Below are positions 4,952-24,424 of a stretch of 28,042 nucleotides of DNA, in pieces (the first letter of the stretch is position 1; each line of letters begins with the position of its first letter). Below the pieces are notes generated by a model. The model saw only the letters and a list, made by a program, of their open reading frames with translations. It had not been told where the DNA came from and did no database searches. The position numbers and the translations under genes were made by a program. The DNA is from a virus: positions 1-28,042 of IMG/VR virus record IMGVR_UViG_3300036398_001779, one strand, 5' to 3'.

Positions 4952-4967
4952 TTTCTTGGAGGGGAAC

Positions 4968-5258
4968 ATGTCTGAGCTTGTACCGCCTTGGCAATATAGA
5001 CAACCTCTCTGCGCTGAAATAGGCGCAGAGTTGTTTTATATAGAAGATAAAGATGAAGAAGTAGTTGGGCAAAGACTTAACGGGTACGTTGATGCAAAAA
5101 GGATATGCATGTCCTGCTCTCATTTAAAAGAGTGCGGTGAGTGGGCTATTAATAATGAAAAGTATGGATTTTGGGGTGGATACTCTCCAGTTGAAAGAAA
5201 AGAAATTCGTAACAAATTAAATATAATACTTGAGGACAATCTCCCCTCTGCTTCATAA
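4968..5258 (+). CDS. whiB-like: WhiB-family Fe-S transcriptional regulator
   Basis: A 96-aa WhiB (Wbl) protein. The four cluster cysteines are Cys15, Cys47, Cys50 and Cys56, in the canonical C-Xn-C-x2-C-x5-C spacing (ICMSCSHLKEC). They are followed by the GFWGG turn, the Wbl signature, and a basic C-terminal helix (ERKEIRNKL). Wbl proteins carry a 4Fe-4S cluster and bind the primary sigma factor to redirect transcription; phage copies such as TM4 WhiB can repress the host whiB2. ATG at 4968 is chosen because the strong Shine-Dalgarno GGAGGGG (4958-4964) lies just before it. A longer TTG start at 4956 would place the Shine-Dalgarno inside the gene. The 31-residue gap between Cys15 and Cys47 is acidic (EDKDEEV). 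Confidence 0.95.
   Translation: MSELVPPWQYRQPLCAEIGAELFYIEDKDEEVVGQRLNGYVDAKRICMSCSHLKECGEWAINNEKYGFWGGYSPVERKEIRNKLNIILEDNLPSAS
5007..5030 (+). promoter_or_regulatory. GC-rich hairpin plus T-rich run inside the first WhiB gene
   Basis: CTCTGCGC (5007-5014) pairs perfectly with GCGCAGAG (5023-5030) around an 8-nt loop. CAA/TTG can extend the stem past a bulge, and TTGTTTTATAT follows at once. This resembles an intrinsic terminator placed about 40 nt inside the coding region, so it might attenuate the gene when untranslated. Since it lies in coding sequence, chance is possible. Confidence 0.3.
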
Positions 5259-5973: not shown

Positions 5974-5993
5974 TATAGTCTACTATAGTTATG
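5974..5993 (+). promoter_or_regulatory. Palindromic TATAGT element and probable leaderless promoter
   Basis: The 57-bp gap before the WhiB-zinc-ribbon gene is very AT-rich and contains TATAGT three times (5967, 5974, 5984). TATAGT at 5974-5979 and ACTATA at 5982-5987 form a perfect inverted repeat around CT. TACTAT at 5981-5986 fits the actinobacterial -10 consensus TANNNT and lies 7 nt before the GTG at 5993. This is the spacing expected if transcription starts on the start codon. TTGCTT at 5946-5951 is a weak -35 candidate. There is no Shine-Dalgarno. The palindrome overlapping the -10 could be an operator. Confidence 0.5.
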
Positions 5994-6517
5994 TGTGGAA
6001 ACCAGCAGAAAACCTCAATTGGCAATCAGAAGCCACCTGTGCAAAACCTTCTAATAGGTACGCCTTAGATTGGTTTTTTTCTAAAGACTTTAAAGAAAAA
6101 TATGCGGCTAAGAACATGTGCTTTACCTGTCCAGTACGCTCAGAGTGCCTCCAGTGGGCTTTAGAGCATCGCCAGATTTGGGGTATTTGGGGTGGAAGAG
6201 ATGAGGTTGATATTCGCAGAGCTTTATCCGTGTCTTACAGTGGTGAAGAAACTAGACGACGCAGATTTCCAAACTGTCCATATTGCACAGCTCGTCCTTC
6301 TAAACTAGAAACATCTATAGAAGAGCTACCTAATGGTGGCCGCTGGACCACAGCAAAAGTTGTTACTTGCACAGAATGTGGCTTTGCTTGGAGAAGTCGT
6401 ACTAGCGCAAATGCGGTTGAAGCTTACAAAATAGAACGTAGCGAAAAATCAAATAAAAAAACTAAATCTAAAAAATCTTCCTTGTCCAAACCTGCAAACC
6501 CTTCTCCAAAACAGTAA
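5993..6517 (+). CDS. whiB-like: WhiB domain fused to a C-terminal zinc ribbon
   Basis: A 174-aa protein, longer than usual phage Wbl proteins. The N-terminal WhiB domain has cysteines 16, 43, 46 and 52 (MCFTCPVRSEC) and the GIWGG turn at 64-68, followed by a basic RRR stretch. A second module has Cys95/Cys98 (NCPYC) and Cys126/Cys129 (CTECGF), a zinc ribbon of the kind found in RNA polymerase subunits and transcription factors. The last 30 residues are Lys/Ser-rich and probably disordered and DNA- or RNA-binding. GTG at 5993 continues this frame; the ATG at 5991 opens a different frame. The absence of a Shine-Dalgarno suggests a leaderless mRNA. The 3' end overlaps the opposing methyltransferase gene by 50 bp. 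Likely role: redirecting host or phage transcription. Confidence 0.9.
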   Translation: MWKPAENLNWQSEATCAKPSNRYALDWFFSKDFKEKYAAKNMCFTCPVRSECLQWALEHRQIWGIWGGRDEVDIRRALSVSYSGEETRRRRFPNCPYCTARPSKLETSIEELPNGGRWTTAKVVTCTECGFAWRSRTSANAVEAYKIERSEKSNKKTKSKKSSLSKPANPSPKQ

Positions 6518-7043
6518 CTTTATTTGCATAAGGGATTAAAAATGCATCAATTCCAGTCTTAGGTTGGTCCATTTTAGGTAGAGAAGCTCCCCACATATAA
6601 TCATCAAAAGCAAGTATCCCTCCGTTATTTAAACAAGAGTAACCATCTAGGCCATCCCTAAGTGCCCAAATTGCGTGATGATCTGCATCTACATAAACAA
6701 ATTCATACTTTTTGTTGTTTGTTTTAAAAAACTCTTTAGTTGTCATTTTCTTTTTAATAAGCTGACCTGAGTCAATAAAAGATTTTAACTTTTGATCATA
6801 GGTATCTTCTACACTTTTCCAGTCCATATCCATATGCTCTTCTTCTTCAGAGCCCTCCCAAGTATCAACATCTGTCAAAGTTGATTCTGGGTGGGTAAGA
6901 ACGTTATCAAAAAGCCATACGGAAGCATCACCTGTGTATGCCCCTAGCTGCAGAAAATCTACCTTTACATCTTTATATGCAGGTAGAAATTTAGAAAAGT
7001 TGTGGATTGCCCCACCTTCAATAAACCAATTAGGGTAGGTCAT
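6468..7043 (-). CDS. Class I SAM-dependent methyltransferase (Methyltransf_24-like)
   Basis: A 191-aa methyltransferase. Motif I is FLQLGAYTGDAS (residues 30-41; the glycines contact SAM). An acidic residue ends the second strand, in LTDVDTWEG. Motif IV-like YVDADHH lies at 117-123, followed by a helix and a strand with NGGILAFDDY. The VDADH...GG...DD pattern is characteristic of Methyltransf_24/TylF-type O-methyltransferases, which often methylate sugars. It overlaps the GT2 glycosyltransferase gene by 4 nt (ATGA), so the two are probably translated together and may act on the same product; sugar O-methylation is therefore the favoured guess. It is the last gene of the minus-strand unit and runs 50 bp into the convergent WhiB-zinc-ribbon gene. 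Confidence 0.85.
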   Translation of the reverse strand: MTYPNWFIEGGAIHNFSKFLPAYKDVKVDFLQLGAYTGDASVWLFDNVLTHPESTLTDVDTWEGSEEEEHMDMDWKSVEDTYDQKLKSFIDSGQLIKKKMTTKEFFKTNNKKYEFVYVDADHHAIWALRDGLDGYSCLNNGGILAFDDYMWGASLPKMDQPKTGIDAFLIPYANKVTVLEKGLQVWTRKIF

Positions 7044-8101
7044 GCCTTTAGCTCACAAAACATTAAGTTCTTAGCAAGTCTTTCCTTATGTTCTGGAGTA
7101 GCAATCTCTAAAGCAGCTCTAGCGTGAATAACTGCGTCTTGATATCTTCCTAAGTTATAAGCAGCAATCGCTGCCATATCATGTGGTGTATGACCCCAAG
7201 CTTCTGCTTCGCAAAGATATTCCATAGGCTTTACTGTAATTGCTAAAGCTTCTGTTGCTTTTTCGTAGCACTCTTCCCATTTAGCAGCGTGGTAGTAGTG
7301 CTGGGCTAGATCAACGTATGGTTCTCTACGTTCTGGAGCTTCTTTTATTGCTAATGTAAACCACAACTCTGCATCTTCTTTAGATAGTTTGCCAAGAAAA
7401 CGCATTGAAGCTGCACGCTCTGGAGCCCATCTTGCTCTGTGAAGTTGTAGGTGACGTTTAAATTGTTCCTTTGCTTCATCAAATCTGTTATAAAAATATA
7501 GTTCTCTTGCATAATAAAAAGCATTTCTATCATCACTTGGATCTTCTTCAACAGAAATCTTTAGTAAGTCTAAATACTGTCCTCGTGATTTTGTATTATC
7601 TGCATGGTGCTCCATAGTTGCTTGAGTCCAATATTGAACTTCTTGCATACGATCAGGAACTAAAATTTCATGTACTGGATGCTTCCAACGATAGCCATGG
7701 CGAGCATGGATTTTATCTCCGCCAAAGGTAAGACCTGGAGTACCGTCTTCATTCCAGTTCCAAATGTAGTTATATCTAGGTCGAGTGGCTTTAGCTTCAA
7801 ATGCTTTTTCAAGTTCTGCTTTCCATCCCGGCAACATAATCTCATCCATATCTAGAGGGATGCAGTAATCAATATCAGCTGGAAGTAGCCCTAAAGAAAC
7901 GTTTCTTGCTTGATCAAAGCGCCAAGGTCTTACACAAATAGACACAACATTAATCCCTAAAGCCAGAGCCTTCTCGACAGTCTTATCTGTTGATCCTGTG
8001 TCGGCTATGAGTAGATAATCTGCCTCATCTTTTACAGAGTTATACCAAGTCTCAACAAACTGTTCCTCGTTAAGGGCTATTGTATAAACGGCTACCTTCA
8101 T
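7040..8101 (-). CDS. GT2 family glycosyltransferase with TPR-like C-terminus
   Basis: A 353-aa protein. The N-terminal ~130 residues form a GT-A domain: the nucleotide-binding start VAVYTIALNEEQF, ADTGSTDKT after the second strand, RNVSL, and the metal-binding D-x-D in LDMDE (Asp84, Asp86). The remaining half is helical with TPR-like pairs (for example AQHYYHAAKWEECYEKATEAL and AIAAYNLGRYQDAVIHARAAL). This GT2-plus-TPR form occurs in bacteria and in phages. TPRs could hold a protein acceptor, much as OGT does, although OGT belongs to a different family. It overlaps both neighbours by 4 nt. Its place in the same transcript as Thr-rich collagen-like fibres makes fibre glycosylation a reasonable inference; surface or DNA targets cannot be excluded. 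Confidence 0.88.
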   Translation of the reverse strand: MKVAVYTIALNEEQFVETWYNSVKDEADYLLIADTGSTDKTVEKALALGINVVSICVRPWRFDQARNVSLGLLPADIDYCIPLDMDEIMLPGWKAELEKAFEAKATRPRYNYIWNWNEDGTPGLTFGGDKIHARHGYRWKHPVHEILVPDRMQEVQYWTQATMEHHADNTKSRGQYLDLLKISVEEDPSDDRNAFYYARELYFYNRFDEAKEQFKRHLQLHRARWAPERAASMRFLGKLSKEDAELWFTLAIKEAPERREPYVDLAQHYYHAAKWEECYEKATEALAITVKPMEYLCEAEAWGHTPHDMAAIAAYNLGRYQDAVIHARAALEIATPEHKERLAKNLMFCELKA

Positions 8102-8331
8102 TTTTTATCTTTATCTGTTTGTATTTTAGAAAAGTCTATTGAAAAAAATATACTTCCATAATATTTTTTATTAGGGGTCTCCATTGACTTTCTTATATGC
8201 ATCTCTCCAGTTGTAGATTCTTTAACTTGATCAATGCTTAACTCAAATAAATTAGCTACTTCTTCCCAAGCGTTACCCATAAGCTCTTTATAAGTATTTC
8301 CAATTACATTTACTTCATATGCTGCTTTCAT
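8098..8331 (-). CDS. Small protein, possibly dodecin-like (77 aa)
   Basis: A 77-aa protein with a clear AAAGGAG Shine-Dalgarno. Secondary structure reads as strand (AAYEVNVIGNT), long helix (YKELMGNAWEEVANLF), strand (GEMHIRKS), strand (YYGSIFFSIDF), then a charged tail. That beta-alpha-beta-beta order, the V.G.T turn before the helix and the size resemble dodecin, a flavin-storage protein. The typical flavin-stacking tryptophan after the helix and the glutamine of the last strand are not evident. A flavin-binding protein two genes from a flavin-dependent halogenase would make sense, but the similarity is weak and is offered only as a lead. It overlaps the GT2 gene by 4 nt. Confidence 0.7.
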   Translation of the reverse strand: MKAAYEVNVIGNTYKELMGNAWEEVANLFELSIDQVKESTTGEMHIRKSMETPNKKYYGSIFFSIDFSKIQTDKDKK

Positions 8332-8344
8332 TTTTCTCCTTTGC

Positions 8345-8635
8345 TTAGTTGTAGTTTTTTACTATTCCTATAATTGCTAATACTATCCATAAAATATTAA
8401 ACCATATGATTGTTGGCAAAGTTTTTACAGTGGATGACCATACAAGAGCTATACTAGACCCTAAAGCAAAAATGTAAAGCCACCAAAATTGAATATCAAA
8501 TATAAGACCAGGAAAGATTATAATAATTTTTGTCATAAATGCAAAAAATTCTACGGTGTTCGCTCTGTTCCAATACTTTTTGTGACGCATTGTAGAAAGA
8601 GCTGTTATCCATTGTAGATTTTTATTTATATCCAT
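8345..8635 (-). CDS. Three-helix membrane protein (96 aa)
   Basis: Three hydrophobic segments are visible, about residues 31-47 (FFAFMTKIIIIFPGLIF), 50-67 (FWWLYIFALGSSIALVW) and 73-91 (LPTIIWFNILWIVLAIIGI). A basic, aromatic N-terminus (MRHKKYWNRAN) probably stays in the cytoplasm. It overlaps the last 14 nt of the halogenase gene, so coupling is likely. I do not recognise the family. A membrane anchor or transporter serving the adjacent halogenase or glycosyltransferase is possible; a holin is another option, but there is no endolysin next to it. Confidence 0.75.
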   Translation of the reverse strand: MDINKNLQWITALSTMRHKKYWNRANTVEFFAFMTKIIIIFPGLIFDIQFWWLYIFALGSSIALVWSSTVKTLPTIIWFNILWIVLAIIGIVKNYN

Positions 8636-9998
8636 AAAGCTCTAACTCCTTTTTAGCTTGATTTGGGGTTATTTTTCCAGTACCAGCTAATATCCAATTC
8701 CAAAGAGGTGATCCAATACAGCCAAAATAGTAATCGTATTGAAAAATTCCAGGAATTTTATTTTTTGACTTTTCTAAAACTTCTTTTGTAAACTCGGTAA
8801 GCATATTTTTTTCTGTAAAATTACGCCAAAACTCCGAGTCTGTTCTTCCTCCTTGGTAATGTAGTACAAGAAAATCTTGTATGTCATCATACATTTTTCT
8901 CATTCTTTCATTGTATCTAGAGATATTACTATCTAAAAAAGTTTTTTCAGGGGTCTCTCCTAAAAATTCAAAACAAAATACTAACATTTGAACGATGGTA
9001 GTGTGGATAGAAGTAGCCTCTAGTGGCTCAGCAAAAGCTGCTGATAGTCCCATAAAAATACAGTTTTTCTCCCAAAGAGAGTCTAGTCTACCAGCCTCAA
9101 AATCAATAAATTTAATTGGAGTAATTTTTTGATTTAAATATTTTTCAATTTCTTTTTGAGCGTCTTCATCTGAAATACAATTTCTATCATAAACATAACC
9201 ACAACCTCTTCTACTTTGAAGAGGAATATCCCACATCCAACCAGAAGACAAAGCATGCGCCGTTGTTAATGGTTCTGGTATTTCATTTTCTTTATATTCT
9301 AATAGAAAAGGCATAGCTCTGTTAACTGGAAGATGGTCACTGTATGATTTCCATTTAACATTCATTTTTTGTGAAAACAGTCTAGAAAATCCAGTACTAT
9401 CTATAAACAAATCTCCAGTCACTGTCTGATTGTTGTCAAGTACAATAGAATCTATTTTTCCATTTAATTCAGATATATTTATTTCTTTTACTACAGCATC
9501 TATTACTTCTAATCCTTCTTTAACAAATTTATTTTTAAAATATTTACCAATTTTATGTCCGTCAAAGTGTAAAGCATAACTTTCTGGGAAATGATTAGAT
9601 TCAAAATGTCTTCCTATATTAGAAGCTATATGCATTTTTTCTACACCAAAACGAGAAAAAGCTTGTAAAAAATCAATATCTGGATTTTGACCAGAAGTAT
9701 TGCTTCCGTCTAAGGGTGCATAATAAGAAGAACCATCTCCTGTCCAATTTTTATGTCTAATTCCAAGTTTAATTGTTGCATCTATTGATTCAAAAAAATC
9801 TTTAAAATCAATGTCAGTATTAAACCATCTATTTTGAACTAAATCTAAAAGAAGACCAGTTGAACCCTCACCAGCACCGATAATACCAATTTTAGAGGAT
9901 TCGACTACTGTAATTTTGTGTACATTGGGTTGAGTTTTTAAAAGAAATAAAGCAGAAATCCACCCAGCTGTCCCTCCGCCAACAATTACAATTTTCAT
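8622..9998 (-). CDS. Flavin-dependent tryptophan-halogenase homologue
   Basis: A 458-aa member of the FADH2-dependent tryptophan halogenase family. The N-terminal Rossmann signature is GGGTAGW (residues 7-13). Lys77 in TIKLGIRHKNW aligns by pattern with the catalytic lysine (Lys79 of PrnA/RebH) that relays HOCl. The family motif WxWxIP is intact as WMWDIP at 254-259. Glu327 in EPLEATS matches the active-site glutamate (Glu346 in PrnA). All key residues are therefore kept. The protein is shorter than the ~530-aa tryptophan halogenases, so the substrate-covering region differs and the substrate need not be tryptophan. A cyanophage enzyme of this family, VirX1, is known to halogenate. No flavin reductase is visible; the host would have to supply FADH2. 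Gene position just after fibre genes suggests late expression. Confidence 0.93.
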   Translation of the reverse strand: MKIVIVGGGTAGWISALFLLKTQPNVHKITVVESSKIGIIGAGEGSTGLLLDLVQNRWFNTDIDFKDFFESIDATIKLGIRHKNWTGDGSSYYAPLDGSNTSGQNPDIDFLQAFSRFGVEKMHIASNIGRHFESNHFPESYALHFDGHKIGKYFKNKFVKEGLEVIDAVVKEINISELNGKIDSIVLDNNQTVTGDLFIDSTGFSRLFSQKMNVKWKSYSDHLPVNRAMPFLLEYKENEIPEPLTTAHALSSGWMWDIPLQSRRGCGYVYDRNCISDEDAQKEIEKYLNQKITPIKFIDFEAGRLDSLWEKNCIFMGLSAAFAEPLEATSIHTTIVQMLVFCFEFLGETPEKTFLDSNISRYNERMRKMYDDIQDFLVLHYQGGRTDSEFWRNFTEKNMLTEFTKEVLEKSKNKIPGIFQYDYYFGCIGSPLWNWILAGTGKITPNQAKKELELYGYK

Positions 9999-10038
9999 AT
10001 GTCTTTTCCTGTCTTTTGTCTTTTATTTATTATTTTTA

Positions 10039-10662
10039 CTAGTAAGGAGTTGCCCCGCTAATGCTATTGTTTTCCGTTCCAGACCAAAAACCATTGCTGT
10101 TTCCATCAAAGTAAGATCCTAACGTATTTGACTTCTCTAGCATAACAGAATCCACATAAAAAATCTCCCCTGAAGTGGTAGAACTAGTAACAATTCTGAT
10201 ACTCATAAAGTTTGCAGACCCTTGTTTTGTCACTGATCCACTTAAACGCACCCAGTTTCCTGTGTATGATAGATTTTGAATTCCAATATTTGCAGCAGAT
10301 ACCGTACCTACCGAGAGGGTGTCTTCATACTGAAGCGCTCTTATAAAATAGTTTGCTGCTGAATTACCGCTGGCAAGTTTTACATACGCACTAATATAAT
10401 AAGTTCCTTCGCCACCAACTAAAGGAATAAAAGTATAAGCAGCGGCAGAACCAGAAGCGTTAGTTACCGATAAGGATGCCGCCCCTGTATTAAATTCAGA
10501 TGTTGTTCTAGCAAGTGTTGCTGAAGCGACAGATGACCAACCAGTGGTGTCTACCTCAAAAGAAGGGTTAGGTACATAGTTAACTCTATATCCAAGAGCT
10601 TTTGGTTCGGCTTTATTCTTTAAAAACCCAGCACTAGCGGCTACTCCTATGCTTAATGGCAT
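10039..10662 (-). CDS. Tail-fibre-type protein with CBM4/9-like jelly-roll domain
   Basis: A 207-aa protein. It opens with a short MPLSIGVAASAG segment resembling the [13 protein letters not shown] and [13 protein letters not shown] starts of two neighbouring collagen-fibre proteins, suggesting a common attachment segment. Then VNYVPNPSFEVDTTGW starts a domain with the pattern of carbohydrate-binding module family 4/9 proteins: N-PSFE-GW, later GAASLSVTN, YYISAYVKLASG, GNWVRLSGSV and IFYVDSVMLEKS. This beta-sandwich often binds polysaccharide. It ends with a short YFDGNSNGFWSGTENNS loop typical of phage proteins carrying this domain. It lies 12 nt after the adjacent fibre gene with a GGAG Shine-Dalgarno. 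A role in host-surface binding is likely. Confidence 0.82.
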   Translation of the reverse strand: MPLSIGVAASAGFLKNKAEPKALGYRVNYVPNPSFEVDTTGWSSVASATLARTTSEFNTGAASLSVTNASGSAAAYTFIPLVGGEGTYYISAYVKLASGNSAANYFIRALQYEDTLSVGTVSAANIGIQNLSYTGNWVRLSGSVTKQGSANFMSIRIVTSSTTSGEIFYVDSVMLEKSNTLGSYFDGNSNGFWSGTENNSISGATPY

Positions 10663-10674
10663 TTCTACTCCTAA

Positions 10675-11936
<1,262 letters not shown>

Positions 11937-11955
<19 letters not shown>

Positions 11956-23506: not shown

Positions 23507-24424
23507 TTATACCGAGTAGGTTATTTTTCCAGCTGCGCCAACAGCTAAGCCGTTATTGTTGTCAAGAAATACACCATTGATAGTTGATGTGCCAAAACCA
23601 CTAGTTCTTTGAATCCAAGTAACTCCATCAAAAGAGGTTGCTAGTTTACCGCTTGCTCCTCCAGCAATATAAGTTCCATCTGGAGATATGCTTATAGATC
23701 TAACGGTAGAAGCTCCAAATGTGCTTGTAGGAAACGACTGAGTCCATGTAGTTCCATTATTTGAAAATGCAAATTTACCAGCTTCACCACAAGCAAAGAA
23801 TCTTCCTCCTGCAGTAGCTGTGACTGCAAAAATACTGCTTGTTCCAAAACTAGAAGTTCTTTGAGTCCAAGTAGTTCCGTTTGTTGAAGTGGCAAGTTTT
23901 CCATCATATCCAACAGCTACAATAGTGCTGTTAGACGCCCAAAGGCCATTTATGTAAGTTGTTCCAAAAGAAGAAGCTCTTAAAACCCAGCTAATACCAT
24001 CTACAGAGGTTGCTAACTTTCCAGAACCTCCAGCTGCTATCCATAAAGATGCACTAGGAGAGTATGTAATTGCAAGAATCGGTGTTGCGCCAAAACCAGA
24101 AGAACGAGCTGTCCAATTTATGCCGTCTGGGGACGTAGAAATTTTTCCAGAGCTTCCACCAGCAACATACTGATTATTTCCATAAGCCACAGCAAAAACA
24201 CTGTTTTCTCCAAAGTTACTTTCTCTTTGAACCCAATTTTGTGTGTCACCAGAGGTAGCAATTTTTCCATTATTTCCAACAGCAACATATCGATCTAATG
24301 ATTCGTTGTAGTTTATTGCATTTATGTTTGATAAAGCAAAACTACTATCTGTAACTAAAGCCCATGTGACTGGAGTAAAAGGAAAAGCTAAAGTAGCGTG
24401 CATAGCGTGAACTGATATCAGCAC
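23507..24424 (-). CDS. Seven-bladed beta-propeller protein
   Basis: A 305-aa protein built from seven copies of a ~41-residue unit with the core GKLATS.DG..W..R.SSFG (for example SGKISTSPDGINW, SGKLATSVDGISW, DGKLATSTNGTTW). The last copy stops at GKITYSV, and the missing strands are supplied by the N-terminal VTWALVTDSSF, the usual closure of a propeller ring. The unit resembles BNR/YCF48-type blades. Such propellers bind sugars or proteins, so a receptor-binding or host-surface role at the tail is plausible; the sialidase Asp-box is not clear enough to claim catalysis. GTG at 24424 lies two bases after the upstream stop and lacks a Shine-Dalgarno, so re-initiation is likely; an ATG seven codons later is an alternative. 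Confidence 0.88.
   Translation of the reverse strand: MLISVHAMHATLAFPFTPVTWALVTDSSFALSNINAINYNESLDRYVAVGNNGKIATSGDTQNWVQRESNFGENSVFAVAYGNNQYVAGGSSGKISTSPDGINWTARSSGFGATPILAITYSPSASLWIAAGGSGKLATSVDGISWVLRASSFGTTYINGLWASNSTIVAVGYDGKLATSTNGTTWTQRTSSFGTSSIFAVTATAGGRFFACGEAGKFAFSNNGTTWTQSFPTSTFGASTVRSISISPDGTYIAGGASGKLATSFDGVTWIQRTSGFGTSTINGVFLDNNNGLAVGAAGKITYSV

Follow-up and report, generated by a model that had tools for sequence, protein, structure and literature searches.

P0001, the product of a gene in a viral DNA stretch of 28,042 nt (the window; Table 1), is a flavin-dependent halogenase (FDH) with a tryptophan-halogenase fold and retained catalytic residues, as judged from its sequence and modelled structure. 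Moreover, its gene lies in an accessory cassette that is exchanged between phages, together with the gene for a small membrane protein of a conserved, previously undescribed family; comparison of loci indicates that the same small protein pairs with quite different FDHs, drawn from several deep lineages. The presence of an FDH in an actinophage was already known, and what is new is the context, that is, the small membrane partner and the swappable cassette. Overall, the best explanation is that a mobile cassette of FDH and membrane partner was added to a gene set that decorates the surface or the fibres, a reading that we judge evenly balanced between right and wrong. Because the partner is common to unrelated phage FDHs, and because near-isogenic phages occur in nature both with the cassette and lacking it, the role of phage halogenases becomes testable.

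Table 1. Features of the window, with their positions and strands
Feature	Position	Strand	Remarks
Window, IMG/VR record IMGVR_UViG_3300036398_001779	28,042 nt		virus record
Second WhiB-family protein	4956..5258	+	
WhiB-family regulator	5993..6517	+	convergent with the fibre operon; served as unbiased bait for relatives
Methyltransferase (Methyltransf_24)	6468..7043	-	nearly constant in relatives
GT2-type glycosyltransferase, TPR-like C-terminus (PHROG 13126)	7040..8101	-	in almost all relatives, FDH-bearing or not
77-aa ORF, hypothetical	8101..8331	-	Shine-Dalgarno-like AAAGGAG upstream
Accessory cassette: 77-aa ORF, small protein and FDH	8103..10021		about 233 bp instead in L183/L185
Small membrane protein, 96 aa	8345..8635	-	7 Trp; three predicted hydrophobic helices; 14-nt overlap with the stop end of the FDH gene
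FDH, P0001, 458 aa	8622..9998	-	profile match, AF2 model, fold match
Glu327, equivalent of PyrH E354 / PrnA E346	9018..9020	-	HMMER alignment with PyrH
WMWDIP motif, residues 254-259	9222..9239	-	
A94-P95-L96, in place of His-Pro-Phe of reference enzymes	9711..9719	-	indole-stacking pair lost
Lys77, equivalent of PyrH K75	9768..9770	-	HMMER alignment
GGGTAGW flavin-binding motif, residues 7-13	9960..9980	-	
Fibre-type protein, carbohydrate-binding CBM_4_9 domain	10039..10662	-	directly upstream of FDH
Collagen-like tail-fibre protein	10675..11955	-	PHROG match

The halogenase and its substrate pocket

The frame in which an earlier note on this DNA (the sequence-only reading) had seen a halogenase is intact and complete, and lies on the minus strand, a point which that reading left unstated. 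It has its ATG at 9998 and its stop at 8622-8624 and comprises 458 codons, with a Shine-Dalgarno-like AGGAAAAG 5' of the ATG; the plus strand across 8622-9998 is full of stops. P0001 matches the Pfam family PF04820 (Trp_halogenase) over residues 2-447 with 303 bits (E 5e-90; cut-off 21 bits) and PHROG 2928 ('tryptophan halogenase') with 351 bits, and the four motif positions named by the sequence-only reading are all found where it had put them; the catalytic roles of PyrH K75 and E354 we take to be established knowledge. The AF2 model (pLDDT 92, pTM 0.91) matches tryptophan halogenases with Z 38-46 (for SttH, Z 46.4, rmsd 2.3 and 441 residues), as against Z 32 for CmlS and CndH, which are phenol/pyrrole-type or other FDHs. 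The nearest folds are thus those of tryptophan halogenases, and not of non-halogenating monooxygenases, the placement that had been named as speaking against the assignment. With PyrH, SttH and AbeH, tryptophan 5/6-halogenases of the PF04820 variant-A type, P0001 shares the fold (Z 43-46), the flavin motif, the Lys, WxWxIP and the Glu, whereas it differs from them in sequence (about 27-30% identity), in its length, in having Ala/Leu for His/Phe, in its viral origin and in its membrane-protein partner. At 458 aa, against mostly 497-554 aa in the solved enzymes, it is indeed shorter than its bacterial counterparts, as had been claimed; its nearest relative, from L022 (57% identity; L-numbers are labels of the related loci and contigs compared with the window), has 456 aa, and the short form is therefore shared.

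Conservation was counted over 291 unique FDH homologues, including a viral subset of 144-146 sequences. Every one of the 144 viral FDHs with a residue in the Lys77 column has K, 146 of 146 keep the leading Trp of WxWxIP, and the Glu327 column has E in 140 of 146 and Q in five. A Gln for the catalytic Glu (EPLQATSI) is present in close phage FDH relatives, namely those of L005, L006, L008, L025, L027, S-PM2 (L015) and Sf-CH11 (L021). Pairs of related FDHs give dN/dS values of 0.06-0.13, indicating strong purifying selection. As the catalytic residues are kept, the relatives are under purifying selection and the gene has a Shine-Dalgarno-like site, an active enzyme is likely; kept motifs are no proof, and halogenation by P0001 is, on these grounds, quite probable. 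Assays of many FDH homologues detect no halogenation, and it is conceivable, if improbable, that P0001 is an FDH-fold protein that no longer halogenates, that is, a flavin oxygenase (for example, a hydroxylase) or a relic. Close relatives carrying Gln fit such a protein, since the change from E to Q inactivates characterised tryptophan halogenases (PMC8407142), but the window keeps Glu327, the lysine is the same in every viral FDH with a letter in that column, dN/dS is low in the relatives, and the nearest folds are true tryptophan halogenases.

The indole-stacking pair (PrnA H101/F103, PyrH H92/F94), whose role we take from established knowledge, is a feature of free-tryptophan halogenases that P0001 lacks. 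In its clade the first stacking position is G or A in 73 of 79 members (range G/A/S/T) and the second is I or L in 78 of 79 (range I/L/V); bacterial relatives have H in 111 and F in 107 of 136, and the reference enzymes have H/F in 4/4. Loss of this pair makes free tryptophan a doubtful substrate for P0001, and phage FDHs of this type should not be annotated as free-tryptophan halogenases. The altered substrate pocket proposed by the sequence-only reading is thus supported, by the loss of His and Phe and not by the shorter length from which it had been argued. As to the C-terminal module, whose residues bind the amino-acid moiety in free-tryptophan halogenases, PyrH E452 aligns with a Pro beside a 3-residue insertion, but Th-Hal does not show this Glu either. 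With its altered pocket, the large clade of viral enzymes also offers something new for biocatalysis.

In a 135-row tree, P0001 falls in a 57-row, all-viral clade (SH-aLRT 97) that is nested with alphaproteobacterial and phage FDHs; a branch with SH-aLRT 100 separates it from VirX1 and the solved tryptophan halogenases (a quick FDH tree was made without bootstrap). Kinship with VirX1 (cyanophage Syn10, PDB 6QGM; identical to Syn10 CPUG_00131), which the sequence-only reading had cited as a known viral member, is therefore not supported, and a VirX1-like viral halogenase is ruled out both by the tree and by the scores (146 bits against VirX1, 205 bits against PyrH). The two are viral variant-A FDHs with the same catalytic residues, but P0001 belongs to a separate deep lineage and has APL at the stacking position, where VirX1 has YPF. 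Its best PHROG match, PHROG 2928, holds the phage halogenases of cyanophages and HTVC008M (70 phage records with full-length matches); these are at most about 37% identical to P0001 and have 2OG-Fe(II) oxygenases at their loci, not the small membrane protein. In a search of 84,980 genomes, none of the best 80 bacterial loci among the matches listed exceeds 40% identity, and most of these relatives are alphaproteobacterial; recent capture from an actinobacterial host was rejected on this basis. The FDHs of the window and of L030, L057 and L090 may form one clade (AU p 0.655); a single acquisition of all actinophage FDHs was likewise rejected, since DSL-LC01, L191, L194 and L228 hold other lineages.

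The cassette and its setting in the fibre operon

The window has DNA similarity to Actinomycetia phage DSL-LC01 and shares its gene order: WhiB, RecA-like, exonuclease and helicase genes follow in the same order, and the fibre operon is convergent with WhiB. Together with the two WhiB proteins, this bears out the earlier view of a probable actinophage. The putative fibre operon, too, is supported, in that predicted genes are on the minus strand throughout from 28041 to 6468, the collagen-like, CBM-like and other fibre-type genes coming first and then the FDH, the small ORFs, the glycosyltransferase and the methyltransferase; a promoter scan of this operon gave no excess over shuffles. Within the operon, 23507-24424 (minus strand) encodes a predicted repeat protein, and the DSL-LC01 gene at the matching place is annotated as a photosystem II assembly factor, probably a beta-propeller fibre part. 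The sequence-only reading had also called an actinophage halogenase noteworthy, and an FDH does lie beside fibre genes in a probable actinophage, but a 'tryptophan halogenase', ORF137, was published for the lake actinophage DSL-LC01 in 2023 (PMC10611076). Like P0001, ORF137 is encoded between glycosyltransferase and fibre genes, at the same operon position of a related actinophage; unlike P0001, it has 523 aa, and it is only 25% identical, with no small partner found beside it. The same site thus holds another FDH lineage in DSL-LC01.

Two stretches of the window are collinear with L183, L184 and L185 at 93% DNA identity, one ending at 8102, where the glycosyltransferase gene starts, and the other beginning at about 10022, on the upstream side of the FDH gene. 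The cassette of 1.92 kb that lies between them is cleanly absent between glycosyltransferase and fibre genes in these contigs. Its G+C content is about 31%, as against about 40% in the flanks. In related phages the FDH and the small protein come and go, the glycosyltransferase and the methyltransferase being nearly constant, and FDHs found at this same site are only 25-50% identical to each other. The sequence-only reading had the fibre-gene setting right but missed both the overlapping membrane-protein gene and the nature of the cassette. Location alone proves little, however, because fibre regions are general insertion hot spots. The place just ahead of the SSB-like gene in replication clusters (helicase-primase to SSB and DNA polymerase) is an insertion hot spot for the FDH/small-protein pair, with the small protein alone in L262 and some 20 similar loci, the FDH alone in L033, and both in L276 and L280.

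The setting raises the possibility, which we think unlikely, that the FDH acts on the virion, halogenating Trp or Tyr in its fibre proteins, the small protein being incidental or an aid to assembly. Enzymes that act on peptides offer precedents, MibH acting on a lanthipeptide and QhpG on peptidyl Trp, and P0001 has a weak profile similarity, far below the cut-off, to QhpG and LodB, which are maturases of peptidyl residues. Moreover, its gene comes directly after a CBM-type fibre gene and collagen-like genes, FDHs are found inside fibre arrays in L026, L028, L029 and L031, and FDHs often adjoin 2OG-Fe(II) oxygenases. Yet near-identical relatives have these fibre genes but no FDH, and in L033 and L276 the FDH is in a replication gene cluster, away from fibres.

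Pairing of the halogenase with a small membrane protein

The gene for the small protein is directly downstream of the FDH gene, and its ATG is preceded by AAGGAG within the FDH 3' end. Neither the protein nor its relatives have a significant Pfam or PHROG match (E 0.001), a consensus-like query found no match in 50,697 phage records, and no cellular homologue was found in 398 Actinomycetota genomes, in a search without a positive-control genome. The 21 members of the family have a mean column identity of 63%, with E29, K36, W51, W52, W66, N80 and W83 invariant. The structure model is of low confidence (pLDDT 67), and the best Foldseek match to it, SemiSWEET, is not significant (E 4.9). Small ORFs upstream of cyanophage FDHs (S-PM2 GC 860, S-H38, Sf-CH11) were considered as relatives and rejected, being soluble proteins of unrelated sequence. 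In L005 (1594-1827), a different two-helix membrane protein (DUF6552) comes right after the FDH, and relatives of that FDH are without a small protein of the window's type.

The WhiB-family regulator was used as a bait that is neutral to both FDH and small protein. The 48 loci that span the interval divide into 10 with both genes, five with FDH only, none with the small protein only and 33 with neither (Fisher p 4.6e-7), the loci being contigs, that is, fragments that are not independent events and in which lack of an FDH does not mean absence from the genome; without near-duplicates, the counts are 7/5/0/19 (p 3e-4). The small protein is thus present in 10 of 15 FDH-positive and in 0 of 33 FDH-negative loci. 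The FDH-negative records, which are up to 134 kb long, had no FDH anywhere, and those searched again, as whole records, had no small protein. When the small protein itself was the bait, an FDH was found at most 8 kb away in 53 of 79 loci, a sample that was picked for resemblance to this bait and includes near-duplicates. The other 26 have no FDH within 8 kb, although three of these contigs carry one further off, and the small protein may therefore act alone or with a distant FDH.

In both bait sets taken together, the FDH is followed by the small protein on the same strand in 56 of the 65 loci that hold both, the commonest gap being -4 nt; in L188, L190 and L223 the small gene is inverted with respect to the FDH, the pair being kept despite the changed order and strand. 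On an FDH tree with 23 small-protein-paired FDHs, the label needs 10 changes, of which at least seven are forced by well-supported branches. In 210 of 210 pairs, conservation is higher in the small protein than in its FDH (median 72% versus 28%); in the pair L194/L265 the identities are 90% for the small protein and 28% for the FDH. We consider it very probable, from these patterns, that FDH and small protein are functionally coupled. To this must be added that the FDHs of the P0001 clade obtained with an FDH bait, on contigs rich in 2OG oxygenases, are mostly without the small protein, which is present only at L026 and L028; given its rarity in this clade, it is not the partner of every phage FDH. 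Short, very divergent FDH-like proteins (393-401 aa, 22-24% identical) come after the small protein in L277 (3479-4660) and L332 (3638-4843). We found no published report, in the open-access literature, of phage halogenases paired with a membrane protein.

It could be argued that the small protein works by itself, in superinfection exclusion or as some other moron protein, that it hitch-hikes with FDHs at shared hot spots and that it has no joint function with them, and the 26 of 79 loci without a nearby FDH, the common occurrence of FDHs without the small protein (for example, in five of the 15 FDH-positive actinophage loci) and the spot between primase and SSB genes that the two share on different contigs are all in line with this idea. 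We nevertheless regard it as rather improbable, because order, strand and the -4 overlap recur with unrelated FDHs, because the small protein alone occurs in none of the 33 FDH-negative actinophage loci, nor in the FDH-negative records searched whole, and because three contigs counted as lacking an FDH carry one at a greater distance.

Possible roles of the cassette

Phage halogenases have been listed since the early cyanophage genomes, and the roles suggested for them, which are speculative, include antibiotic protection, secondary metabolites and capsule decoration (PMC2984593, PMC7824862, PMC10452541). As a variant-A FDH, P0001 would use reduced FAD, O2 and halide to form hypohalous acid; the acid would travel to Lys77 and from there reach an electron-rich aromatic ring, and Glu327 would assist in substrate activation. 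The 96-aa membrane protein may anchor the FDH at the membrane, or present or transport the substrate. The group halogenated would then be a membrane- or surface-associated aromatic and not free tryptophan, and such a membrane-linked substrate is a tentative proposal that we hold at somewhat less than even confidence. The host surface or the phage's own fibre proteins may be decorated in a variable way as a result, with changed receptor recognition or the exclusion of other phages as a possible gain. Given the fibre, glycosyltransferase and methyltransferase genes around the cassette, and its exchange between phages, variable decoration seems a plausible role, though one that we would rate slightly on the doubtful side. 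In a bolder version, phage FDHs from several deep lineages and the new family of small proteins would constitute a mobile two-gene system for halogenation at the membrane, which is possible but on the whole not to be expected; if true, it would halogenate the host envelope, phage fibres or the Trp-rich small protein, and would represent a phage surface modification of a kind not described before. The small protein could itself be the substrate, with the FDH acting as a peptide halogenase of the MibH kind.

Alternatively, the FDH may be an auxiliary metabolic enzyme that halogenates a small diffusible molecule (indole, a quinolone or a tryptophan derivative) to yield a signal or antibiotic during infection. 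The variant-A FDHs characterised so far, VirX1 among them, all work on small aromatics or in natural-product pathways (PMC8407142), and for a cyanophage cluster Iyer et al. suggest either a halogenated metabolite or decoration of the capsule (PMC7824862). However, the window holds no biosynthetic cluster, P0001 lacks the indole-stacking pair, and a freely diffusing product would not explain why a membrane partner is conserved and translationally coupled, unless that partner is an exporter; we therefore hold this alternative to be unlikely. The neighbours of phage FDHs elsewhere also bear on the choice between decoration and metabolism. Of the 142 proteins encoded no more than two genes away from 60-odd distinct viral FDHs, 2OG-FeII_Oxy_3 is found in 26 and 2OG-FeII_Oxy_5 in 25 (overlapping sets), and PHROG 274 ('endonuclease V') in 29. 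In L281 (4279-8270), a sulfotransferase, an Asp/Arg hydroxylase, an APS-kinase-like protein, DUF2061, an FDH and the small protein follow in a row, which looks like a larger decoration cassette. Such modifying enzymes, the 2OG oxygenases and those of L281, point to decoration chemistry rather than to a metabolic pathway, although they could be building a metabolite instead.

Two further features recur around phage FDHs. T4-like contigs (L003, L006, L008, L012, L023, L025 and L048) carry one to three FDHs beside fibre genes and, alongside these, up to about 10 genes resembling those for 2OG-Fe(II) oxygenases. Proteins of about 230 aa with an N-terminal 'PxWYK' motif are also found repeatedly beside phage FDHs (L265, 2404-3132; L274, 8828-9538; L003, 5982-6686 and 7302-7997); they are DUF6065-like, and the two that were tested match PHROG 7084.
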